Positions 15,109-31,988 of a stretch of 64,000 nt of DNA are shown here, one piece after another. The position numbers and the translations under genes are program-made. The first letter of the stretch is position 1; every line of letters starts with the position of its first letter. The notes under the pieces are model-generated. The model was not told the DNA's origin, searched no databases, and saw only the letters and a list, made by a program, of their open reading frames with translations. The DNA comes from Fragilariopsis cylindrus CCMP1102. Lineage: Eukaryota; Bacillariophyta; Bacillariophyceae; Bacillariales; Bacillariaceae. The stretch covers positions 1 to 64,000 of the forward strand of contig FMBT01000456.1 of the NCBI GenBank assembly GCA_900095095.1. The letters run 5' to 3'.

Positions 15109-16673
15109 GTGATAAACAGAAAGAGCACTTGTTCTTATCGTTTTCTTTCGTCCTTGTTTTATACCAAGATGATGACGGGGATCTTCCTACTCTTGTGGGG
15201 CAGCTCTACTAGAAGCAGTAGAATAGCAGCTATTGGAGTCACCACAGTTCATGGCTTTACGTCTCCCGCTGCCAGTATATCGTCACGTATGTCAAGACTT
15301 CGTCATGTGAATACCAATTCAATCATGCGCGCATTTACCACAAACGGCAACAATTCTACATCAACAGTCGATGTCGATTCTTCTACCTCCGCTGACATAA
15401 CCAAGAATGCTAAAAGAATCGAGAAACGAAAGCAAAAGGACAAGAGGCAGGCTAGTGCGGCAAAACGTAGTAAATTTATTGGACTAGCGAAGGCGGTTGA
15501 TCGAGGCTCCTTTCCAACGTATCAGCCCGGAGGATCTAGTGGTGACATATTTGTTGCTAAATCAGGTCTACCGGTCGATATTTCTTCAACTGGAGGAGGT
15601 AACTTTTTACAGTTCTAGGAATTGAAAGTTCGTGCGATGATACAGGTGCGGCTGTGGTACGCTCAGATGGGGTTATCCTTGGTGAATCCCTTGCCTCTCA
15701 AGCTCATATCCATGAAGAATGGGGAGGAATAGTTCCAGGTCTTGCCAAAACAGCTCACGAAGAAAATATAGACAGGGTCGTAAACGATGCCCTACAGCAA
15801 GCTCAAATAACGTTGGAAGAAATCGATGCAATTGGTGTGACGGTGGGTCCTGGTCTTGAGATTTGTCTTAGAGTTGGATGTGAAAAAGCTATACAGCTAG
15901 CAACAGAATATGATAAACCATTTGTTGGTATTCATCACCTCGAGGCACATATTCTTATGGCTCGAATAGAAAATCCGGAGCTACTTCAATTCCCTTTCCT
16001 AGCACTTTTAACTTCTGGTGGTCACTGCCAATTACTTAAATGTCTAGGTATCGGTCGGTATGAAATTATTGGAGGAACTTTAGACGATTCGCTTGGGGAA
16101 TGTTATGACAAGACAGCACGTCTATTGGGTCTACCTGTGGGTGGAGGCGGTGGTCCAGCTTTGGAGGCTCTAGCGAAAGAGGGCAATGCAACATCAATAC
16201 CTCTAACTATTCCATTGCATAGAAGGCATGATTGCGATTTCAGTTATGCTGGACTGAAAACAAATATACGGAGAGCAGCAGAAGGTCTAGCAATTGATAG
16301 AAATGTTACATCTGTCTTGGATCTTTCTCGGAAAGATAAAGCTGATCTAGCAGCTTCGTTCCAAAATACCGCAATCATCCACCTGGAGCAGCGCCTAGAA
16401 CGAGCGATAAAAATGATGGAAAAGGAAGATATAAGTAGTCTAGCTGTTGTGGGAGGAGTGGCGGCAAACCAAGAACTTAGGAGTCGATTAAACGCTGTAT
16501 GCGAACATAGAAATTGGAACATGGTAGTACCTCCGGCTAGATTGTGCACCGATCAAGGAGCTATGGCATCGTGGGCAGCAATAGAAAGATTAAAGATAGG
16601 GAGTTCTGACGACCCGTCGAATCAAACCGTGTATGCAAGATATCCGTTTTCGTCTTATCCGAATATCTCTTAA
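15109..16673 (+). CDS. tRNA N6-adenosine threonylcarbamoyltransferase, organellar TsaD/Qri7/OSGEPL1 type
   Basis: Transfers the threonylcarbamoyl group to A37 of ANN-decoding tRNAs (t6A). The N-terminal 120 residues are an organelle presequence: a hydrophobic segment MTGIFLLLWG, then VHGF-TSP resembling the diatom plastid cleavage motif, then Ser/Lys-rich sequence. The catalytic domain follows: VLGIESSCDDTG, GITVGPGLEICLRVG-type core, metal-binding HHLEAHI with two His, LDDSLGECYDKTARLLGLP, the Gly-rich VGGGGGP loop, DFSYAGLKTN and VVGGVAANQELR. The frame changes between FVAKSGLP..GGGNF and TVLGIESS at 15599-15612. Either one T is missing from the T5 run at 15604-15608, or a 14-nt (or 47- or 71-nt) phase-1 intron ends at 15612. 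Organellar rather than cytosolic by its presequence; plastid versus mitochondrion is unresolved. Confidence 0.9.
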
Positions 16674-17809: not shown

Positions 17810-20800
17810 TTACCCCTTCGGATTTACATAGCCACCTCCTGCTGGAGTAACATTTTTCGAATTTGTATCACTGTATTCCTTGAGAAAAAAGCGTGAACTT
17901 TTTAAATCAAATCCTTTTTCTCGTGGTGGATCACTACCACTAACGAAACCGATCAAATTCAAAGTATTGAAAACCCATATGCTACCTTGCCGTCCCCCTG
18001 AACCACTGTCATCCCAGATCTTTGCCAGATAACCACTAGGTTTGCACCAGTCTCGCGGAACGCAACGCATACAAGTTACATCTGGCTGTTTGTCTGTTTT
18101 ACTCCCAACGAAACCAACGGCAACAAACTCGTCACCAGGAGGCACGGGCTCCCAGGCATAAAATGGATTACTACCATGTGTTACACTCCAAGCTAGACGA
18201 AAACGTGCTGGATATGGCATGTATTTATCCATAACATGAGGTAACCAGCTACTACCTCCAACCCAACTACCAGTGGTGTCAGTTACCTCAATACACAGTC
18301 TATCCTTACCATCACGATTTGGATTGTCATACCCAGAACCCGCAAAGTGTCCAAGCGAAAAAGAATCTTTATTTTGACGGAATGCACCACTTTGAATAAC
18401 AGGCTCCCATATACTGATTTTCTGCCGTGACATACTGCCTTGGCTGTTCCATATCATATTGAACTTGGTGATTTTCTTGACCTTAACTTTCACTGCTGCA
18501 AGAACTGGAGGAGGAATATTAACAATCTTCTTCTCTTTGTCATTCGATGGCATCGGTGGCAACGGCATACCATTATTGAAGGCTGCAGCATTGGTAGACA
18601 TTGTACCGTCGTCTTCAAAGCCTACGGCTGCTTTGAACTCGTCAAGATTAATAAATCCGTCACGATCTTTATCAAGCTCCTTCATAAATCCAAGAAGAAG
18701 AACTTGGTCTAGCGGCAATCCGAGCCATGTTAGTCCGAGTTTAAGATCTTCATAGTTCAACAAGCCATCACGATCACGATCAATTGCATTAAAGCAGTCT
18801 CTCGGATACATTCCTCTTGCTTTCAACATAGCTGTAATTCTTCCTGCAGCTATTTTGTAGTTCAGCATATGATGCTCATCAGCAGTAATGAAGACCTTTG
18901 ATAAAGCAGAGGTGGAAGGATCCTTTTGTTTTCGGCGACGGTTACTTCGAATTTCGACAAAGTAATTATAACGCATCTCCAGATCGTTATCTTGAATCGC
19001 TCGAAGAAGTAGACTGACCTCGCGAGGCTGATAATTGAGAGAACTGTCCATAAATCGAAAACAGGCCTTGGCCGTGGAATCTTGGAAACTCTTGGCTTGA
19101 TTGTAACCAAAGGTTGAATCCAGAAGAGTTCTGTCCGTCCTCAAGGCTACAGCACAATCCTTTCCAGGAATCAATGGCATAGCGCTCTGTTGGTGCATCA
19201 CGGCACGCATACATTCAGCCTCAAACAACGATAGTGCAACATAGTATCGACCTGACTGGATACGATGATACAGTCGTTGTTCAAGTAGTCTTTTTAAATC
19301 TTCAAAAGTGACTGGTCGATTTGCAAATTCTGGCATTTGCTGGAAAAACTTATCCCCCTCTTCGCCATCGACATCGACATCAACTGCTTTCAAAACTTCT
19401 TTCAGTTCAGCAAAGGAAATTGTTCCTGAACTATTATTATCAGCGCTGGAGAACGCCCTCTTCAGCATCTTCTCCTGGGTTTTAGATAGAGCCTTGCCTG
19501 ATGCAGCAACTTCTTGCGTAGATCCCTGGAAGGAATAAAATCCATTGTCACAATAATATTTTTCAGACGACGATGTGTCTTACTGTTCCAAGCCTTGTCA
19601 TAATAGTTCTTCGAAAGGTACAAGTAATCCGGAAATTTCATTGAAACACCCTTCGAAAAAAGATAGTTCTTCACCGAAAATTCACTTGCTGGGTAGAAGT
19701 AACTTTGCCACGATTTGATATCTTTTCCGTCCTTCTTCAATTTCCATTTTCCGTGATCATCTGAAAAGGGTAGGGAAAGTGATTCAACCTGCCAAGGATC
19801 GGGATTCTCTCCATCACGAGAATATTTTTTCTTTTTTGGATACTCTTCTACGACTTCCTCCTCTTCTTCCTCCTCCTCTTCTTCTTCTTCCTCTTCTTCT
19901 TCCTCCTCCTTAAAATTGAGAAAAAAACAGAAAACGTAAGATACACACACATTCACATTCATATTTTTCGATTTCCGATGACGTACATGTAAATAAACAA
20001 GATACAATACAGTCCAGCTAAAATACAAAATACGTACCTGCTCTTTGAGAACTTCTTCTTCTGATACTTGCTCTTTACCCAAATTTGCATCTTGGTCCTC
20101 GTCTCCGACTTCCTCAATTATGGGACCTGCAGATCGATTTTTGTTAAGTCCTTCTGAATTTACTAACACCATCAATATTTTGTCAACCACAGCCTTGTCA
20201 TAATCATTCACAATAAAATCCTTTCTTTGGATCACGCTGTTGCGCAATTGGTCTGACAGAGGCACAGTTAAAGGTATACTATTCTGCACAGTGAAGTCTA
20301 GACGTTCTGTGAGAATGTCAATTGATTTCTGTAGTTTATCAATGCCAACTAATTTCAGTCTTGTAGAAGACCCTCCGGAATTGGGCAATACAAGGGTCTT
20401 GATTGCTTCCAAATCATCTTCAAAAAGGCTTTTTGATCCCTTCAGCCATGCTTCGAAACCTGATGTTGCGGCATCTTTTTGAGCCCCCGCAGATGACTTT
20501 GTACTGGCAGTTGCAAATTCTTTCATTCGCGTTGAAAAGGCAAGCTGAGTCAATTCTCGATAATTGGCTGTGAGAGTCTTGTACGCTCGTTTCCTGGTAA
20601 CGTTATCGATACTCTGCTGACAAAGCATTTTAAACTGCATGTTCTCACTCTTCATTCCGTTTACCGTAAGCCATGCCGAAACATTTACCAAGAGTTGTCG
20701 TCCACTCCCGGCAGCCTGGATTGAAGGAGCGGCTGAAAGAGGGTTTGCTAAACTTAGAAGGTCCGAAGCATAACCACCAGAAAGAGGTGGTGTTGTTTGT

Positions 20801-23800
20801 TGTAGTAGAGGGTTCCCCTGTGGTTTCTTGGTCAACTTGGCTATCTGATCGTTGATCAATCTCATTACTTCGGGGATAATAAATAATTCAACAGTCTGAC
20901 CTTTTCCAATGCCCCTCATTCTAAATGCACCTTGAGCATAGTCTCTAAACGTCATGTCCTTCCCGAGTGTCAACACAGCTCTAGCGTCAATGCATTGGTG
21001 GATATCCATTCCAGTAGTGTGGATTTGATCATAAAACGAAAAACGTCTGTGCGGAGGTATTCCAGATTGGTTCAGCCTCACAACATTCATCCCATGCCTC
21101 ATCAGAATCATCTTTCTATCGTTGTGGTCGAGAAAAACAACTCCATCAAATTCCTCGGAGAGACCATTTGCCATGAGATATTTTGCGACATCGAAGTTGC
21201 TCATTCCAGTAATCAGTGCGCCACAATCTAGAAGCACGTGGAACGAAGGCTTCGCCTTTAAAATATCATCTAGCAACTTCGATGCATTCCAGTCTGATCC
21301 CAACGTTCGACTTGAAACAATGGATTCACTTGTCAGGAAAGCAAGGATTTTACCATCCGCACCTTCTTCGTATTGGCACTGACCAAGTTCTTCAGGTAAC
21401 AGGTCACTCGGGGTTCCACTAAAGCCAAGTCGCTTACTGAACAGCATCTCACCACCTAAATCTTGACCCGAAGCACTGATCTTTTCGTGGTGATGCTCCA
21501 TTGTCAGAGGAAACACAAATTGATCAAGATAGTACTCTATTACCTGCGGTTGGTCCATCAGAAGTTTATATGTGATACTCATGTGGTTTTCGTCCTTCAG
21601 ATCAATTAAATGAAGCGGCCAAATATCATCAGATCCTCGACCTCCTCCTCTTCCGATGGGACCGACAGCATATGCTTCAGGATCAGCAGGTCCGAGGCCA
21701 CCAGTGTCCTCTCCCTCTCTTGGTCCACGAACTTTACCTCCTGCAGCCTCTACCCAATTCTTGTATCGAACAGCTGCTGGACGTTTGTGATATGGTCCAA
21801 ATTCTGCATCAAGCTTTTCTCGTAGCTCAAGTATAACATTTTCAAAATCTGCCATTCTCATATTTTCGTATCTATATCCCATGATGGTCAACCCTATCAC
21901 AATATCAGGGTGCGAAAATTGACTAGCTCGACTTGGGATATCTTTCCCGATAAAAGGAATTGCTGCTAACCGGCGCGCAAGAGAGACATTCGCCTCTCCA
22001 CTATTCCTCAGGTCTTGTTTTGACAGTAGACCAAATGAAACTCTATTGATCTTACTCAGACAATGTGGTACAAAGTTTTGGAGGAGATCGTGGCTGAGGT
22101 TCAACATTTTCATGTACTCGTCATCTAACGCAACTTGGACAGCAGATGCCGCTTGGCGGTCTTTCAATGGACCATTCATCAAGTACGAAAGCAAATGCTT
22201 GTCTTCAACTGACGGAAGCCTTTTGTTTCTCAAGTAAACTAATTGCCATCTGGCAAGAAGAGGTTTTAATCTCTTGTGGTAGAAACCACGATTGAGCAAG
22301 ACCAAGTGCGGTGTTTGTTGCATGTACTTGCTCGCGATACCTTCTAGAATAACATTCGATATTTCTTCGAGGATAGATATTGCTTCTCTGCTATCTTTGA
22401 AGGCGACTGACATTTTTCGTTGCGTGTGATAGAAAACAGCATCAAGAATATGCCACTGGATGTCCCAGCGAAGACCGACCCCAAGTTTCGATCTTGAATA
22501 GTCAATTGGGTCCTTCAAACCGATTGGCCAATTCAGTTCACTCTTCAATGGGTGCAATATAAGATCTACTTCGTCAAGAAGCAAAATACCGGTTCGGAAT
22601 AACTTTAAGATCTCTGTACAGTAGTACACGTCTTCAGGATTTACCTGAGTTTCAACAATTTCAGACTGGTCGCGGAAACGCCGGGCAATTGCCGACAGCG
22701 AGAAGTTTCCAAAAACACCGTTGCTTTGAGGTTGTCTCGTGCCACCTCTCCCAAACTTCGCTTCTTCGAGTACCTTCATCATCTCTACAAATTTCAGCTG
22801 GAACGATTTGATACTGGTAGGTGTTGCAATGATCACTGCACGACTATCTCGAGCCTTACAGAGCTTCAAGTATAGATCCTTTGTGATAGGTGTTCCTCTA
22901 TTGAAAGTAAATGTGAAGATTGGTTTTCTAACCACAGCTGCAAACTTCTCCCTCATCACACTCCTGGAAAAATCAAGCAAAGCGTGTGGAACAACCTGCG
23001 TAACCAGGGACTTTCCATCTGCAAGCATCAACGCAAGCAATGGTGTGACAACGGTAGTTTTTCCTGCCCCCATGATCATTTGATGGCACATAGATTGGTT
23101 GTTGTCTCGTAGAGACTCGAGGAATTTGTTAACAAGAATAACTTGACTTTTACGCAGTAGAATGGAATAAGTAAATTCAAATACGAGGAATCTCGGATCA
23201 AACTCAATGAAATTTGGATTGGACGCATTTACTTTCATAAAATGCCTTTCGTTCGTGATATCCGTAGCAACTTTTTGGGATTGAAGCTTGATTTCTTGGC
23301 ACATTCGACCACGTTGGCCTGCGTCATTATTTGATTGCTTGACACCTCTCACGAGATTCATGAGTTTCGTCAGACTGTGGGATTTGTGACGAGAAACAAA
23401 ACAAAAAACCGTTAGAAACAATGATTTCATTGCCAATAATATGCTATACGTAACAATTCCTTTATCAAATACATACCTCGTGAGGGCTCGATGAGTTTGA
23501 CTAATTCTAATTGAAGTGAGCATCGCGACAATCGTAAGACTAGTTACCGTCTTGTAAGCAACTCCCGACATATAAGGGTTTAAAGATCGGATATCATGAT
23601 CAGCCGTAGTGGATAGGATAGATGCAACCAACAACTCAAACCAAGCTGCAGGTTCTCTTTCGCTCACCTGTCCTAGTCTGAACCGAAGAAAGTTGATCTC
23701 TCCATTCGGTCCAGTGGAATTTGGTGTATCGCTTCTCTCGTCACTTGTTGCAATCGCTAAGGCACGGTTCATAAGATTCCATAGAGATTTCCTGTCAAAT

Positions 23801-26800
23801 GCCATGGCCTGGTTAAGTCCCTTGATGAGACTATTCACTTGACCCACTGCAGTACTTAGCGCTGATGGGTTCGTGTGGAAGGAATCGACTTCTCTCGGGG
23901 TGAATCCAATGAGGATAGGATTTTTTTCTGAATTTGCTTTTTGAGAGTATTTTAGCACATCTGTGGCCACCCGCGTCATTGTGGCCTGTGAACAATGCGT
24001 CTGTGACGCTTTATCACCAGAAACATCGAATGGGATAGCACCGGAAACAGCTGGCAACCCTATTTCATATCGAGATAAGTAACTGACGTATTTTTCAAGT
24101 TTCATTGGTGCTAAAGGCCTCGTAGCAAAGGCTTGAAGCTGCTTGAGAGGAATACTGACAGCTGCACAATTTTGAATGTCCAAATAGAAGGTAGATCGAG
24201 AGTAGTCAGTAATTCTGGGCACCACCCAAAGTCTATGCTGAGAATATGATTCTGGACGAGTCAAGATCATAGCTGTTCGTGGAATGGATTCCTTGAGAGT
24301 CGGAGAATTGTTCATCATTTTTTGTACCCCCTCTTGCTTCAAAAAGACGTGAAGTTGCTCAAGAAGACGACTAACGGCATCTTTTCCCTGAAACATTCCT
24401 TTTATTTTGTTCATTCCGATATCGATTTGAAACTTAGGAATATTAGGGTGGCCTGCTATATTCGGGTTTTCAGCGAGAATCCGAAGAATTGACATTTCTG
24501 CTGATCCATTCTTGAAGTCCGAAGGTGGCAAAAGACGAAACAAGACACGCCCCCAATTATGTGGCCTATCACTTGGATTTAATTTGAACGCTACAGTATT
24601 AGTCAGAAGATCATACATAAGCGGAAACCCATATCTCGATGAAGATAATTCTATACCGGAATTCAAAGCAGAGTTAATAAATGTAAGTGCTCGTAGTCCA
24701 CCATACGCAACTTGTTCCTGAATATTTAAAAAAGTGACGAACAGAGGAAGAATAAGAAAGGTAATATCCGTGATCTTACAACATTGTATAACATCAACAA
24801 CGAAAACTTACTTCTTCCGGTCTCATGTAGGCTGCACCGAATACCTTTGAAGAAATCATGGATTTCTTGGGATTATTGATAATTGTCATATCAGGACCAC
24901 GATCGAAATTTTCGACAGTGGGTGGTCTCTCGGTCCCTAGCTTAACAGTAAGACTCTTGTTGTCCGGGAGAGTTGCCAAACTACTAACAGCAGTTACAAA
25001 AGCTTTGCGATTCAGAAGAGTCAGCGAAAGTCTTCCTCTAGCGTCTGGCTTGCATAGTTGCAAGAGTAGCATTTCTTCTTCGGTTGTTAATCTACATGCT
25101 GAAGAAACGAACACATGCTTCTTCGCATATTCCTCCATTTCTTCTGCAACATTCCAAGGACACTTCATTGTTGATTCCTCTCCTAGACCAACAGTCACTA
25201 CCGAGAGTTTCAATCGACAGGCATGTGCGTCAGGATGATAATCATTACCTAGAAATTCGAGCTGGTTGAATATTTGTTGCTACAGTTGAATATATAGTAC
25301 GTGTAAAGTGTGAGTAAATGGACGATCGATTGAGCGGAACCAAGCACTTTGAAATGCAGTAACTGATAACTTACCTCTTCTGGTGTCAATTCCTCACTGA
25401 CGCAAGATTCCATCATTTTGTATACATTCTGATAAGATCCTGTGATAAAATGCATCAACATTAAATACAAAGATGATGAAAGTGATGGAGTCACCAAGAA
25501 AGATCTCGAATTATGGATAGGATAAAGATAGCACCGAACTTCACCTATGTTATCGATCCATTCTTGATTTCTGCGATCCAACAGAACTTGAACGGACAAG
25601 CGAGATCCATCCGTGTGCAACCTACGCGGCAGAGCACAACCAGGCATCAAAATAAACAAATCGTTCTCAGCATTCTGCAGAACAATGAAATGTGAAACAT
25701 CACCAAGCAGAGTCTCGGCCATTTCTCGTGACTCGCTAGAAGTTGCAACGAACAATCCGTCATAATCATTGCTATAAATTCTGAACTCTTTTTGGCCGTC
25801 AGCATTTGTGAATTCTCCCGGCTTAAACGACAAATTTACTCGCGGTAGCTCAATATAGTCAATGGAGGCATGTGAATGAGCCGACTGCACCGTGGACTTG
25901 CTCCAAACAAGTACATGCGCAAGGTTGTCCAGTCTTGACAGCATCATTCCTACTCTCTTGAGCAAAGAAGAAGGAGGAGCTGATACAACATTTAGAAGAG
26001 TTAGGGCCGGACGATTGGGATCAATGGATTCAATCAACGGATCCGAATTCAACACGGGAATTAATTGCACCAATGCCTCGGCTTCAGTATTACAGAAGCC
26101 TGTTGTATCGTTTCCAGGATCTTTACTCAACGTTATTTTCAATCTAGTCGACGATTGGTCCCCATCATTACTCAGTGGATCGTCATTATCTTCTTCTTCA
26201 TCTTCACTCCGTGCTTTTACTTTCTCGTATCCAATGATATTATCGTTTTCGCTCTGCCAAAATACATACTTGTCGACGAGAGAACTAGGGAGCAAACCAG
26301 CTACGAATCTTTCTGGTAGATAAGTTTGCGTTCCCATTTCAGAACTTAATGCTCTTGTAACAACCAGTGACGGAGAAGGATCAACTGTAGTCATCGGCAC
26401 TCCAGCAGACATTGCAAGTATACCACCTACGCGATCTGGATACGGTTCTCCATTCTGCACCTCATGCAAAGAAGTTGACAAGTTAGAGGTATACTCAACA
26501 GCTCGTAGATGCCTTCGTCCATGTTCCACGACATTGAAAACAGTGATTGCAGGAGGGTGCTGCCATACAACAACCTCTTTCAAAGTGTGCGTAGAGATTG
26601 AATCAGTGTTCTTCTTGTTTTCGATCCATCCCGTGAGGACAACGTAAGGTTCGTCAGAAAAATCTTTGTTAGACATGTACAGGGTAACATTTGGTAGTAT
26701 CAAAGGCAGTTTGTCCTTTAAGATATCAGCAATCCAGCTTTCTCCACCCTTCAAAGAAGGAAACTTTCTAGCATACTTTGGGTGTTTGAATTCTTTCAGC

Positions 26801-29800
26801 TCATGATGATTTCTCTGATCAGGCCCCCACGATTGTACATCGTATCGACGACCAACAAGACGCCACCAGTAGCGATTCGTAGTATGCATAACTTCAGCAC
26901 AAGCAACATCTCTCACACCGTCTAGAGCCGTCTGTTTTGTCGCTATAAAATCACGGTCCTCCATGATATTAGGATCAAGTAAGGTCATTTTGTGATTTTG
27001 GAGCGTAAAGTCACTAAGTTGTACATTAACTTCGATTCCAACCGCTTTTGTTGTGACATACAACATCCACTGCTCATAGCTCTGTCCGGGTTTAGGGACT
27101 CGATAGGAACCGTCGCGAAGCTTGACGTCTTCTGTGTCTGGAACGAATCTTCCATAACAAGTCATATGGCCTATGCTCTGCCAATGTCTTTGTTTCATTT
27201 CAGAATCATTGATATCCCTACCACCGGTTCCTGTTGCAATTCGAACAACAGACTCCAATGCCTTATCCCCCTTCTCCTTGTTCTCTCGAATGAACCTCAA
27301 AATATTATATCGATGTTTCTGAATAGTATCGAAAATTTCGGACTGAGCGATTTGAATAGATGGCGGGGGTTGCGTTGGATTATTTTTGTCTTGGAGGTCG
27401 TCATACACCTTATTACTGAAACGAAGATTGATCGTAAGGAAAACCTGCGAAGAAACGATGATCGATACAGCGCGGTAATCTAGATCGTGATATTCGTAGT
27501 TTTTGAATACATACAACAGATGTGCATGGACGAGGCAGGCTGCATCGATATCCTTTGCCTTTGCTTTATTTCTTGAGGGATCGATCCAATATTCAAGTAC
27601 CGGTATCGCATGGGAATCAAGCATCGCCCGAATCTTCATCAGTGCAGCCTGTATCTTAACCTTGTCTAATGATTCTAATCCACGGGGTCTTGGTTGTCCA
27701 GGAACACATTTATTTAGAGCGTACTTCAGGTACCCTTCGATCCTCACTGCAAGACGAATAGCGTAAAGAATCAGAGGACCAGAAGATGATTTTTTGGTGT
27801 ACTTTCCAACATCCATGTCAAGTGCTCTCTCTAAAATTTTCACAACACAAGACGTCACCACGTCTGGAGACTTGGCGATCTCGTTGAAGAGAGTACCATG
27901 TGCTGTAGCGAGTAATGCTTCAAGCCGATCGAAATCCTTTACTGGAATCTCGTTGATAACATCGATGAAGTCTGCGGGCTTCCATCTACCAGGTTCGAAA
28001 AGTGCTGCGTCGACAATCATTTGTAGAGATTTTGTTCGTAATGCCGATAGCCGTCCAGGATCGCCATTTGCGAAAAAATCCAAGATGAGTGGGATTCTAA
28101 TGTATGGAACAGTTAAGAATTGAACAAACTTTTCAGAGTCGGATGGAGAAAGAACGTGACCAAACGTGGGTAGCTCTTTGTTATCGAGATGCAAGATATC
28201 ATCTTCAGTTCGAACTGATACGTTTTTGGCCCTGAGAAAATTGAAAGAAAAAAATGGATAGGTTAAAGTTAAGTTAGTTCTGTGATACAAATAAAGATCA
28301 GATTACAGCCTAGTAATATGTTTGTTGTCAAATACACACCGTTTGCTCAAAAACTTATCGCCACATGAATTCACGACGGTAGTTGGATCTGCTGCCGACA
28401 AGCGCGAACGAACAGCTTTCTGTTTACTGCTAAAAAGAGTCATGAAACCCTTGAATTGCGTTGCAGATGCTGTTTCTGTAGCCACAACATCGACAACTCC
28501 TGAGCGTGGTCCTCAAAAGCTCCTACCTGATAATAACGTCTCGGATCGTCCTTGTCCTGCTTCGCTAGGCGTTTCACAGTCCAATGCAGCGTAGCATCAG
28601 ATGGTAGCCAGGTCTTGTTCTTTGGAACATCCTCTGCCGTCGGTGACTTGCCAGAAACCGCATGTTTGAAGTGGAATACAATGTCGCGAAAATATTCAAA
28701 TTCGGGCAGTACTTCCAAAATCGAGCCGTTCTTTCCTGAAATCAAATTTGCGGTATGATTGGCTAAAGCTTCGTCCGTGGCAGGGAATGGACGAACAAGT
28801 GCAAGCTGTATAGAAAGCTGTGTCGCAAGAACTACGTCACCCTCTGTCGGTGTCATACTGTTGTCAAAGTTTAAGATTGTATTGCGTTTAACTCCATGTT
28901 CATTGAATGTCATTTCCCGTAAATAATCCAGGCATCTAAAACGTAGAGAGCATAAATTTGGATCATAGATGGGAAGATTTGACCCCAAAGTATCAAAGGA
29001 GCCAGCTTCGATCGCAAATGCCTGCGTAGGTCCCTCACATAATCCAGAATAATGAAGGGCGAATACAGATGGATCATCCACAGCCTTGACACGGCAAATA
29101 GCATCCGCGATACATGCCCCACAAGCAAAAGTGATAGATCGAATTGCCACAAGACCTCGAGATTGTTGAACACAGACCGTGGCAGCAGAGTAAATTCGAC
29201 ATATACGTCGAATTAGAAAGAGCAAGTTCAATTGTGTCTCCCTTCTCATCCCAACCTTTCTCCAAAAACAATATGTAGGATCTGAGTTCGGCATAGGTAA
29301 CATTACTGTCAACGCATACTGAGCAGCCGATGCAGCAAAAGCGGGGGCATTCTTTATCAAACGACGTTGTTGAAGTAGTAAACTACACGCATCTGCTACC
29401 CGTTGCAACGATGAAGACGCAGCAGCGTAATCGGTTGCCGTGTGAGGTAACTTTTCATCAGTAAGCACCGCCGGAATTAGAATAGGATCAGGTCTCGGTT
29501 CGCCCATTAATCTTTTAACAACATTTTCGTAGTCATCACGACGCAGTCTTCCAAACAGGGGATATGCAGCCGACCCAGCGTCAGTCCGCAATGACTTTAT
29601 GCTCCCCTTTGAAAAATCATCACTCATAGCCGACTTAGATAACCCATGGCTGTATTGATCCATGGACTTTGAGGCTGTTACACCGAGCTTCTTGTGCATT
29701 TTATCCAAAAGATCCCAAGTACTGGACATGGATTGACCAAGTGAACCATCTCCTACCGTGGAAACATCCATTGTCGAGGCAAAATTCGCAAGGTTTCTTC

Positions 29801-31988
29801 CCGTCAATTTCAAGATTCGAGTATCCTCCGGATCCATGGAAGACGAAGGCGCCAATTCAATTTCGGCATAGGCCAAATCGACAGCTGCATTCATTAACAA
29901 TAAGGTGGAATATTTTGATGACCTCCTTCCACTTTGTGGTGTAGTGGTCATAGCCAATCTGGCAAGTGGGTGGAATGATGAAGACGCAATCGGATCAGGA
30001 ATTTCCAAGTAATCCGCTGGACCTTGGTCGAAATTAGATCTAAGGGGCTGCGAATTCAAGCTAGGCAGAAGTTTCGTGTACAAAAATTCAGCTGTGTTGT
30101 TCTTGCTCGGGTAGACTTGCATTCTGAAAAGGATGGTCCAGAAGGTAGAGTCCAACAATCGACGGGAAGGGATATTCCAGACGGTTAGTGCAAGTTGCTT
30201 GAGTTGTCGACCAGTTTCTGAGTCAAATGTAGATGGGTGATACTGTAATCCGTCTTTACCCGTATTACAGACAGTAAAGCTAAAATGGCCACCGCCACAA
30301 TTCCGAACAATATACAGACATAGATGGTGATAATCTGGTTGCTGCCAACCACCAGGGACGACTAACTGTTGATTTTCCTGAAGGTTCTCAATCAATGAAA
30401 CGAAAACATTTAAAAAGTTCAAAAAAAGCCCATCAAGGGCCTCTCCTGAAGCCCCGGCTGAGTGAGGCAACAGCGATATTAGCTTCACACAAGCCTCACA
30501 TGCCATGTGGTTCCATTTCAGAAAGGCGAGAGGACCAGCCTGTGGCTTATCAGTAGAAGTATCACTTTTGCCGCGCAAGAGTGCAAAGCGTCCCACTCCT
30601 TTCCTCGTAGCTTCTTCTGATTGTGCAACGACATGACAAACAAAACTCAGAGCCTTAGCAAGCTGTTGATAGGCCGCATTACGATCAGCCAATTGCTCTG
30701 CAGTGAGTGGGAACCGTCTAACGTATGTCTCCAGATCCATTAGAGCCCAAAATGGAGGTACGCGAAATATTGGAGAAAATTTACGCGTTGGCAAGCCCCC
30801 TGTTGTTCCCGCAAGATAGTCAAAAGGGTTAAAGGATGGTTCAATGCCGACGCCACCAGTACCAGCCGCAGAAAGACCAACTTCGATTTCTCCCGATCCA
30901 TTCGTTGATTGGAGGAGTGCCACTCCACTCGCACCAATTCCACTAGGAGCTGTTTGTAGTTGTTCTTGCTCCCTTTTCAATTCTTCCTTTTCCTTTCGCA
31001 TCTGCGCCTTGATACTAGCTTCTTCCTTTTCTCTAATCTTCTTTGCCTCTTTTTCCCCCTTCGATAATTTGATTGGTTTTGCAGAAGTTGCAGGATTAGT
31101 ATGCATGGGCATGGGTGATTTCGACCGTTCCCGAAGTGATTCCTGTGAAGACTGCTGCTGCTGCTGCTTCTGTGGGGGAGTCGGAGGTTTCGACCTACCC
31201 ACCATTGGAATGGGCGACTTCGATTGCTGTCGCGAAACATTGACGGGTGTGGGTGTTTGCGACGTAGAAGAGGTTACAGAAGACGTCTGCGAAGAATTAT
31301 TCATTGATGGAGATATCTTTGACTGTAACTGATCTCGTTGGTTCGCAGCAGGAATCGCGGCTGCACTTATACTTTGGTTCATACTACCAGGTCCAGACAT
31401 TGATGGTGTTTGACTCATACTCATACTCATATTATTACCAGAGATTGGTGGTGGTTGTGAAATATTTTGTTGAATAGTGGGAGCAGGTGCTGGTGTCGAC
31501 AGTCCCAAATTTGGCAATCCTGCAAAAGGATCGGCAGACTGAGAAAATGACTGCTGCTGTTGCTGGGGTACCTGAAAGCTTTGCGTTATTCCTTGCGCTC
31601 CATATGCCGTAGGTTGTGGCTGCTGACCATATACGGAAGCTCCCTGCTGAAAGGATGGAGCTGCACCAGCAACAGGGAAACTCGCTTGCTGTTGCTGCTG
31701 TTGCCGCTGCTTGACCGATGATGGAGCAAAGGACGTACTTTGCATTCGTTGTTGCATCGACATAGACGAGTTAAGCTGAGGAGCAGCTTGAGGAGGAGCA
31801 GCTGCTGCCAAGGCAGTTACGTACGTGGGTGGGAACCAACCTTCCTTGCCATTGTATGATCCCCACCACCAAGCCCCGGTCTGATTGGCTTTCGCATTTA
31901 GGGTTGCTCCCTTTGGGAAAGAGATTTGAGATTGTCGAGCATCTCCTTGGAATGGGTGCTTAGCTAGAAAAGTAATAGGTTGTGACAT
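17810..31988 (-). CDS. Giant SH3 / DUF3638-DUF3645 ATPase / EF-hand / Vps62-like protein (4489 aa, 8 exons)
   Basis: Exons 28527-31988, 28340-28449, 25375-28231, 24812-25261, 23477-24717, 20038-23374, 19584-19908 and 17810-19497 join in frame to 13470 nt. The two short junctions (introns 28450-28526 and 19498-19583) are my least certain choices. Order: SH3 (residues 5-60, WWWGSYNGKEGWFPPTYV); Gln/Pro/Ser linker with a charged coiled coil (to about 390); a large helical region; HPDAHACRLKLSVVT; the DUF3638 P-loop MGAGKTTVVTP (about 2806) and LLLDEVD Walker B-like box; DUF3645 with GFSGTPS and TFRDYAQGAFRMRGIGKGQ, resembling helicase motifs III and VI; poly-Glu tract; EF-hand loops DNNSSGTISFAE, DRDRDGLLNYED and DKDRDGFINLDE; and a Vps62/DUF946-like end (SIWEPVI, FVAVGFVGS). 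Known family members have unknown roles. Calcium-regulated ATPase or membrane-contact function is inference. No frame breaks in 13.5 kb. Confidence 0.85.
19909..20037 (-). other. In-frame 129-nt intron before the poly-Glu tract of the giant gene
   Basis: GTACGT donor at 20037 and TTTTAAG acceptor at 19909. Its length is a multiple of three and it has no stop, so retention would insert 43 hydrophobic residues ahead of an 18-residue Glu run. Confidence 0.75.

Follow-up and report, generated by a model that had tools for sequence, protein, structure and literature searches.

The closest described proteins are those of the DUF3638/DUF3645 family (PF12340, PF12359). In the passages of a Tetrahymena proteogenomics study that concern it (PMC12615304), DUF3638 is described as widespread in eukaryotic proteins and as undefined in molecular mechanism. 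Literature mentions were found in gene or family lists for two fungi, in a microsporidia figure legend and in the Tetrahymena study, most subscription journals being outside the scope; none of these passages states a function. DUF3645 was mentioned by a single one of these sources, and PF12340 as a term was not found in the literature searched. Here, a member of this family from the diatom Fragilariopsis cylindrus CCMP1102 was analyzed. Its gene lies on the minus strand, at positions 31988 to 17810 of a stretch of 64,000 nucleotides (nt) (assembly GCA_900095095.1, contig FMBT01000456.1, positions 1 to 64,000; hereafter the window). A sequence-only reading of the window, made without database searches, had proposed the product as an undescribed machine; the family turned out to be described already, and what remained of the proposal is the absence of a function from the passages on the family.

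Taken as a whole, the locus is probably best explained as one gene encoding a giant DUF3638/DUF3645 protein, of which the core has a first lobe of the superfamily 2 (SF2) class and a predicted second lobe. The protein carries the domains listed below in that order, and its core is homologous to giant bacterial proteins encoded in single frames.

Domain organization of the giant protein

Domains were assigned with Pfam at cut-offs of 21.8 (SH3_2), 22.9 (SH3_1), 22.1 (Vps62), 31 (DUF3638) and 25 bits (DUF3645), supplemented by phmmer, hhalign and alignment of relatives. The following features were located:

31818..31970, minus strand, SH3 domain, residues 7-57 (phmmer and Pfam)
30207..30398, minus strand, conserved N-terminal segment, residues 531-594, PGGW...HH...F.F.V.NTG (hhalign)
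22774..23196, minus strand, DUF3638 (PF12340), 90.6 bits against 31 (Pfam)
23082-23056, minus strand, motif I QMIMGAGKT within DUF3638, MGAGKT being residues 2848-2853
22555..22584, minus strand, motif II LLLDEVDLIL, DEVD being residues 3014-3017 (seven-sequence alignment)
21886..21978, minus strand, DUF3645 (PF12359), 44.7 bits against 25 (Pfam)
21403..21432, minus strand, RLGFSGTPSD, candidate motif III, FSGTPS being residues 3398-3403 (alignment and SecA comparison)
21001..21036, minus strand, FYDQIHTTGMDI, candidate motif V (by eye in the alignment)
20896..20940, minus strand, YAQGAFRMRGIGKGQ, candidate motif VI (by eye in the alignment)
18638..19441, minus strand, stretch of three EF-hand loops at 19441-19406, 18781-18746 and 18673-18638 (Pfam)
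18008..18493, minus strand, Vps62 (PF06101) segment, 27.6 bits against 22.1 (Pfam)

For the SH3 region, the best phmmer match had an expectation value (E) of 6.4e-10, to the solved SH3 domain of Rho GEF 7, and the Pfam scores were just under cut-off (SH3_2, 21.1 bits; SH3_1, 20.4 bits). The EF-hands scored 61.5 bits over three stretches with EF-hand_1 and have 12-residue loops with acidic ligands, the second loop ending in D instead of E. No second Vps62 match was found in the F. cylindrus genome.

Following these assignments, SH3, P-loop, DEVD, SGTPS, QGAFRMRGIGKGQ (residues 3561-3573), the three EF-hands, Vps62, DUF3638 and DUF3645, all named in the sequence-only reading, were found in the protein. 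DUF3638 and DUF3645, described there as occurring together in very large proteins, are also together here, both being over the Pfam cut-off and in order. The joining of SH3, EF-hands and Vps62 to this known, uncharacterized family appears to be a new domain combination.

ATPase-like core

The core was aligned with its relatives (seven sequences including the giant protein, to which the others are 18-25% identical; six rows reach the second half). By eye, GxGK and DExD were invariant in 7/7 rows. Below the Pfam cut-off, ResIII or DEAD matches were obtained for five of the seven sequences, namely the giant protein (ResIII, E 9.7e-4), L023 (1.5e-3), L024 (0.027) and the bacterial L012 (1.1e-4) and L025 (3.9e-5), DEAD being the family matched by the last two.

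Family profiles for hhalign comprised 31 rows for SecA, 25 for RecG and 29 for RecQ, after 0/31, 5/30 and 2/31 rows, respectively, had been dropped. The first lobe matched these profiles with E of 2.6e-6 (SecA), 3.4e-6 (RecG) and 9e-5 (RecQ), and the whole core with E of 2.9e-5, 2.4e-5 and 7e-4, compared with 0.47, 0.26 and 0.55 for the reversed-profile controls of the whole core. In hhalign comparisons of the first lobe with single Escherichia coli sequences, six of eight superfamily 1 (SF1) or SF2 proteins outranked all 14 controls. A hidden Markov model (HMM) of the core matched SecA proteins in 31/31 cases at E <= 0.0025, chiefly via the Walker A region and in a small search set. From the profile scores, the first lobe is SF2-like, yet not specifically SecA-like. 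There is good support for reading the DUF3638 part as the nucleotide-binding first lobe of a P-loop ATPase of the SF2 class. A SecA-specific identity of the core was dropped, RecG scoring equally. No NCBIfam match of the core was obtained at E up to 1.

Downstream of this lobe, motifs recur by eye in helicase order among the six rows reaching the second half, with [ST]GT in six, QxxxRxR in six, GxD in five and HTxGxD in four; where motif VI is expected, L026 has QQSIGRHRPG. The GFSGT of the SGTPS box lies on the GMTGT of SecA, in the third-ranked alignment only (E 0.19). The part from FSGTPS to QGAFRMRG may form the second lobe. By eye, motifs V and VI had seemed to resemble the DEAD-box consensus, but the sequence tests did not bear this out.

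Several results weigh against a two-lobed SF2 core. No helicase-family match was obtained for two of the seven family members (L001 and L026). UvrB and RhlE, two of the eight E. coli proteins, scored under the ABC-transporter control in the first-lobe test, so that part of the first-lobe signal is common to P-loop proteins. No relative of the core was found in the PDB by sequence, the three matches obtained being at chance level (best E 0.54). When the second lobe was compared by hhalign with the eight SF1/SF2 proteins of E. coli alongside 14 controls, the controls XerC and NusA came out on top; against the SecA, RecG and RecQ family profiles it gave no signal, and a motif V-VI HMM run against 236 proteins and their reversals made no helicase stand out. 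AlphaFold2 returned no usable model of the core (L012 as second row; predicted local distance difference test score, pLDDT, 30.5) or of the second lobe alone (pLDDT 34.8). The helicase-fold ATPase core proposed in the sequence-only reading was retained for its first lobe, which is SF2-like by ResIII/DEAD matches and hhalign, and was left without signal for its second. Of the two boxes equated there with SF2 motifs III and VI, SGTPS lies on the SecA box at E 0.19 only and QGAFRMRG gave no signal above noise.

Relatives in bacteria and in F. cylindrus

The core of the giant protein aligned with the giant proteins of genome G018 at E 9.6e-30 (652 columns, score 262; best reversed score 26). Since this alignment is with giant bacterial frames, the finding of the gene is more than chance. 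Three bacterial frames of the family measured 3,540, 3,802 and 3,940 residues. The genomic contexts of the G021 and G018 genes look bacterial: purH, purM and purN, each over cut-off, neighbor the G021 gene, and one of four proteins scanned on the G018 contig matched (NodU, below cut-off). The giant DUF3638 protein is present twice in genome G018 (L024; L023/L030); the cores of the two are 74% identical, and the second copy is split over two contigs.

Searches for further relatives were carried out at several levels. A DNA pattern occurred at six loci in named genomes, and the family was present in the genome of one of the six (L012, 'Bacterium isolate M30B43'). Within the phylum of the L012 genome, DUF3638 was matched at E up to 1e-3 in 7/74 genomes and over cut-off in 2/74. 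In the Xenorhabdus phylum, 398 genomes gave no DUF3638 match, which does not prove absence. No relative was found on viral contigs or on plasmids, and none was confirmed at the protein level among genome contigs. Giant SecA-like proteins were considered as a bridge and rejected, as a good match to the DUF3638 model was seen at only one of 11 loci, L066 (E 2.9e-5; next, 0.03). Among the matches listed for the same bacterial phylum (G033:C22, G039:C6, G038:C1 and others) were ordinary secA genes plus frames of ~2,300 to 7,000 residues, with SecA model scores of 29 to 95 bits.

A second DUF3638 gene of F. cylindrus, on contig C411, encodes a protein 24% identical to the core of the giant protein. 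Downstream of it (L004, 3561-9055) lie frames that, by eye, resemble those of retroelements, with likeness to integrase and reverse transcriptase. In the tree, this paralogue (L001) groups with the bacterial L012 (96/96), and a tree of the first part only resolves neither L001 nor the giant protein. Close kinship of the giant protein with the G018 proteins was suggested by phmmer (142-150 bits, vs 83 for the paralogue) but was rejected, the tree leaving the giant protein unplaced. Collinearity with L025 was likewise rejected: four of six alternative alignments were collinear (E 0.011, 0.027, 0.093 and 0.39) and two were out of order.

Conserved N-terminal segment

A bacterial profile of the N-terminal segment was built from L024, L030 and L025; of these three sequences, two share a genome. 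Residues 531-594 matched this profile by hhalign at E 2.1e-6 with a score of 17.6 bits, whereas none of 300 shuffles exceeded 1.2 bits, and matched the G018 sequences alone at E 0.0013. When the 74 genomes of the phylum were searched with the segment, it turned up twice in G018 and also in G021, and in no other genome. For residues 531-594, Pfam gave nothing over cut-off, the nearest being SAC9_GBDL_1st (E 0.036, 14 bits vs 30); SCC3_C (E 0.1) was another weak match. The common segment offers a second, independent handle on the DUF3638 giant proteins.

Gene model

The gene model was built from sequence alone, on an assembly of 818 contigs (67.9 Mb). Open frames on the minus strand were found at 32000-28440, 28302-25249, 25279-24794, 24807-19462 and 19579-17810. 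Following GT..AG splicing, these give a single frame that opens with the ATG at 31988 and has the last base of its stop codon at 17810, with seven exons and 4,534 residues, as follows:

28527..31988, minus strand, exon 1 (residues 1-1154), with SH3, low-complexity linker and conserved N-terminal segment (open frame and gene model)
28450..28526, minus strand, putative intron 1, doubtful, maybe a frameshift; 49% guanine plus cytosine (GC) (gene model)
28340..28449, minus strand, exon 2 (gene model)
25375..28231, minus strand, exon 3, in which residues 1984-2144 match the bacterial L025 weakly, E 0.011 (gene model)
24812..25279, minus strand, exon 4 (gene model)
20038..24717, minus strand, exon 5, holding the whole ATPase-like core within one frame (open frame and gene model)
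19584..19908, minus strand, exon 6, opening with 18 glutamate codons (gene model)
17810..19512, minus strand, exon 7, with EF-hands and Vps62-like end (gene model and Pfam)

The glutamate codons form a GAG/GAA repeat at 19908-19855, directly at the splice acceptor. Two of the six junctions are uncertain. The putative intron at 28526-28450 is 77 nt long and has a GC content of 49%, compared with 29-38% for the five other introns, and a pyrimidine tract is missing; for these reasons it may be an assembly frameshift rather than an intron. The junction at 19583-19513 is in frame only if the obvious TTCCAG is passed over for an acceptor lying 13 bases further downstream. A loose scan of the model gave 63 more in-frame cuts, two of them of 135 nt (near residues 351 and 3417). 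The sequence-only reading had described one coding sequence of eight exons and 4489 residues; the single frame was upheld and the count was not, although one added 135-nt in-frame intron would fit it. Elsewhere in the window, a frame at 15603-16673 resembles, by eye, a TsaD-type tRNA-modification protein.

Alternative explanations

Frame 1 ends shortly after the doubtful first junction, in a stop that overlaps an ATG of the next frame as ATGA (28443-28440). The locus could accordingly be read as two neighboring genes that the model has fused, gene A (31988-28440) with SH3, N-terminal segment and its own TGA, and gene B, from the ATG at 28443, with core, EF-hands and Vps62. The exon-like GC of the junction at 28526-28450 and the continuation of frame 1 into the overlapping stop agree with this. 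Such an overlap is too tight, however, for one eukaryotic mRNA to end and another to begin there, and the bacterial relatives hold segment and core in one frame. Because both lie in the same order within the single 3,940-residue bacterial frame, one gene is favored over two; the position of the segment upstream of the core in both proteins is the best evidence that exons 1 and 5 belong to the same gene. Two genes are quite unlikely. Within a single gene, the core might still be a P-loop protein other than a two-lobed SF2 motor, its second half having another fold and the whole serving as a switch or scaffold rather than a translocase. The lack of second-lobe signal in the hhalign and motif V-VI HMM tests fits this explanation, which is set against the recurrence by eye of SGT, GxD and QxxxRxR in motif order among sequences as diverged as those aligned here, and against the motif VI reading of L026; it is considered somewhat unlikely.

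A further explanation takes the protein as a cysteine-peptidase-like enzyme (for example, acting on ubiquitin-type substrates) whose substrate the ATPase would unfold. In this case His and Asn would come from residues 531-594, and Cys from an SGLC further downstream (residues 981-984). The order His-Asn-Gln-Cys is reminiscent of some cysteine peptidases. H and N are conserved in the P-G-[WY]..H..N-x-G segment, and by eye Q-x4-C follows downstream in L024, L030 and L025. The giant protein, however, has His in place of the relatives' Gln and about 300 extra residues ahead of the Cys, and its Cys stretch could not be aligned with the bacterial relatives by profile, so that the peptidase idea stays a lead only. 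Pfam matches up to E 10 include no peptidase family, and this explanation is very unlikely.

Proposed mode of action

The preferred explanation, one gene for a giant protein with an SF2-class core, leads to the following scheme. If the second lobe is as predicted, ATP binding and hydrolysis would open and close the two lobes of the core, and this movement would pull stepwise on a polymer or remodel it. A protein or ribonucleoprotein substrate is weakly favored over plain duplex unwinding, given that no helicase accessory domain was recognized and that the SGT-box stretch looks most SecA-like. Judging from the domain names, the SH3 domain would bring the giant protein to partners rich in proline, activity or docking would be tied to calcium by the EF-hands, and the Vps62-like end would position it at membranes. 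In its fullest form, the scheme would describe an ATP-driven translocase or unfoldase of polypeptides, gated by calcium, tethered through SH3 and Vps62, and containing a hitherto unrecognized cysteine-peptidase-like domain; its family of giant machines would be common to this eukaryote and a bacterial phylum with small genomes. This form is highly improbable. The profile link of the DUF3638 family to SF2 motors can be tested via K2852, E3015 and ATPase activity.

Comparison with known systems

With the DUF3638/DUF3645 family, the giant protein shares both domains, their order and its very large size, and it differs by the added SH3, EF-hands and Vps62. Its likeness to SecA (TIGR00963) consists of the first-lobe profile match and the placement of GFSGT on the GMTGT box (E 0.19); it differs in that RecG fits equally well and in that the aligned regions are confined to short blocks. 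RecG, RecQ and other SF2 helicases resemble it in the Walker A region and in the residues ahead of it, whereas its second lobe is without a match among them. Unlike the giant protein, the two bacterial relatives scanned whole (L024 and L026) matched neither SH3 nor EF-hand nor Vps62 at E 0.01. The core is common to the giant proteins of genomes G005, G018, G021 and G031, and those of G018 and G021 also have the N-terminal segment, in the same order.

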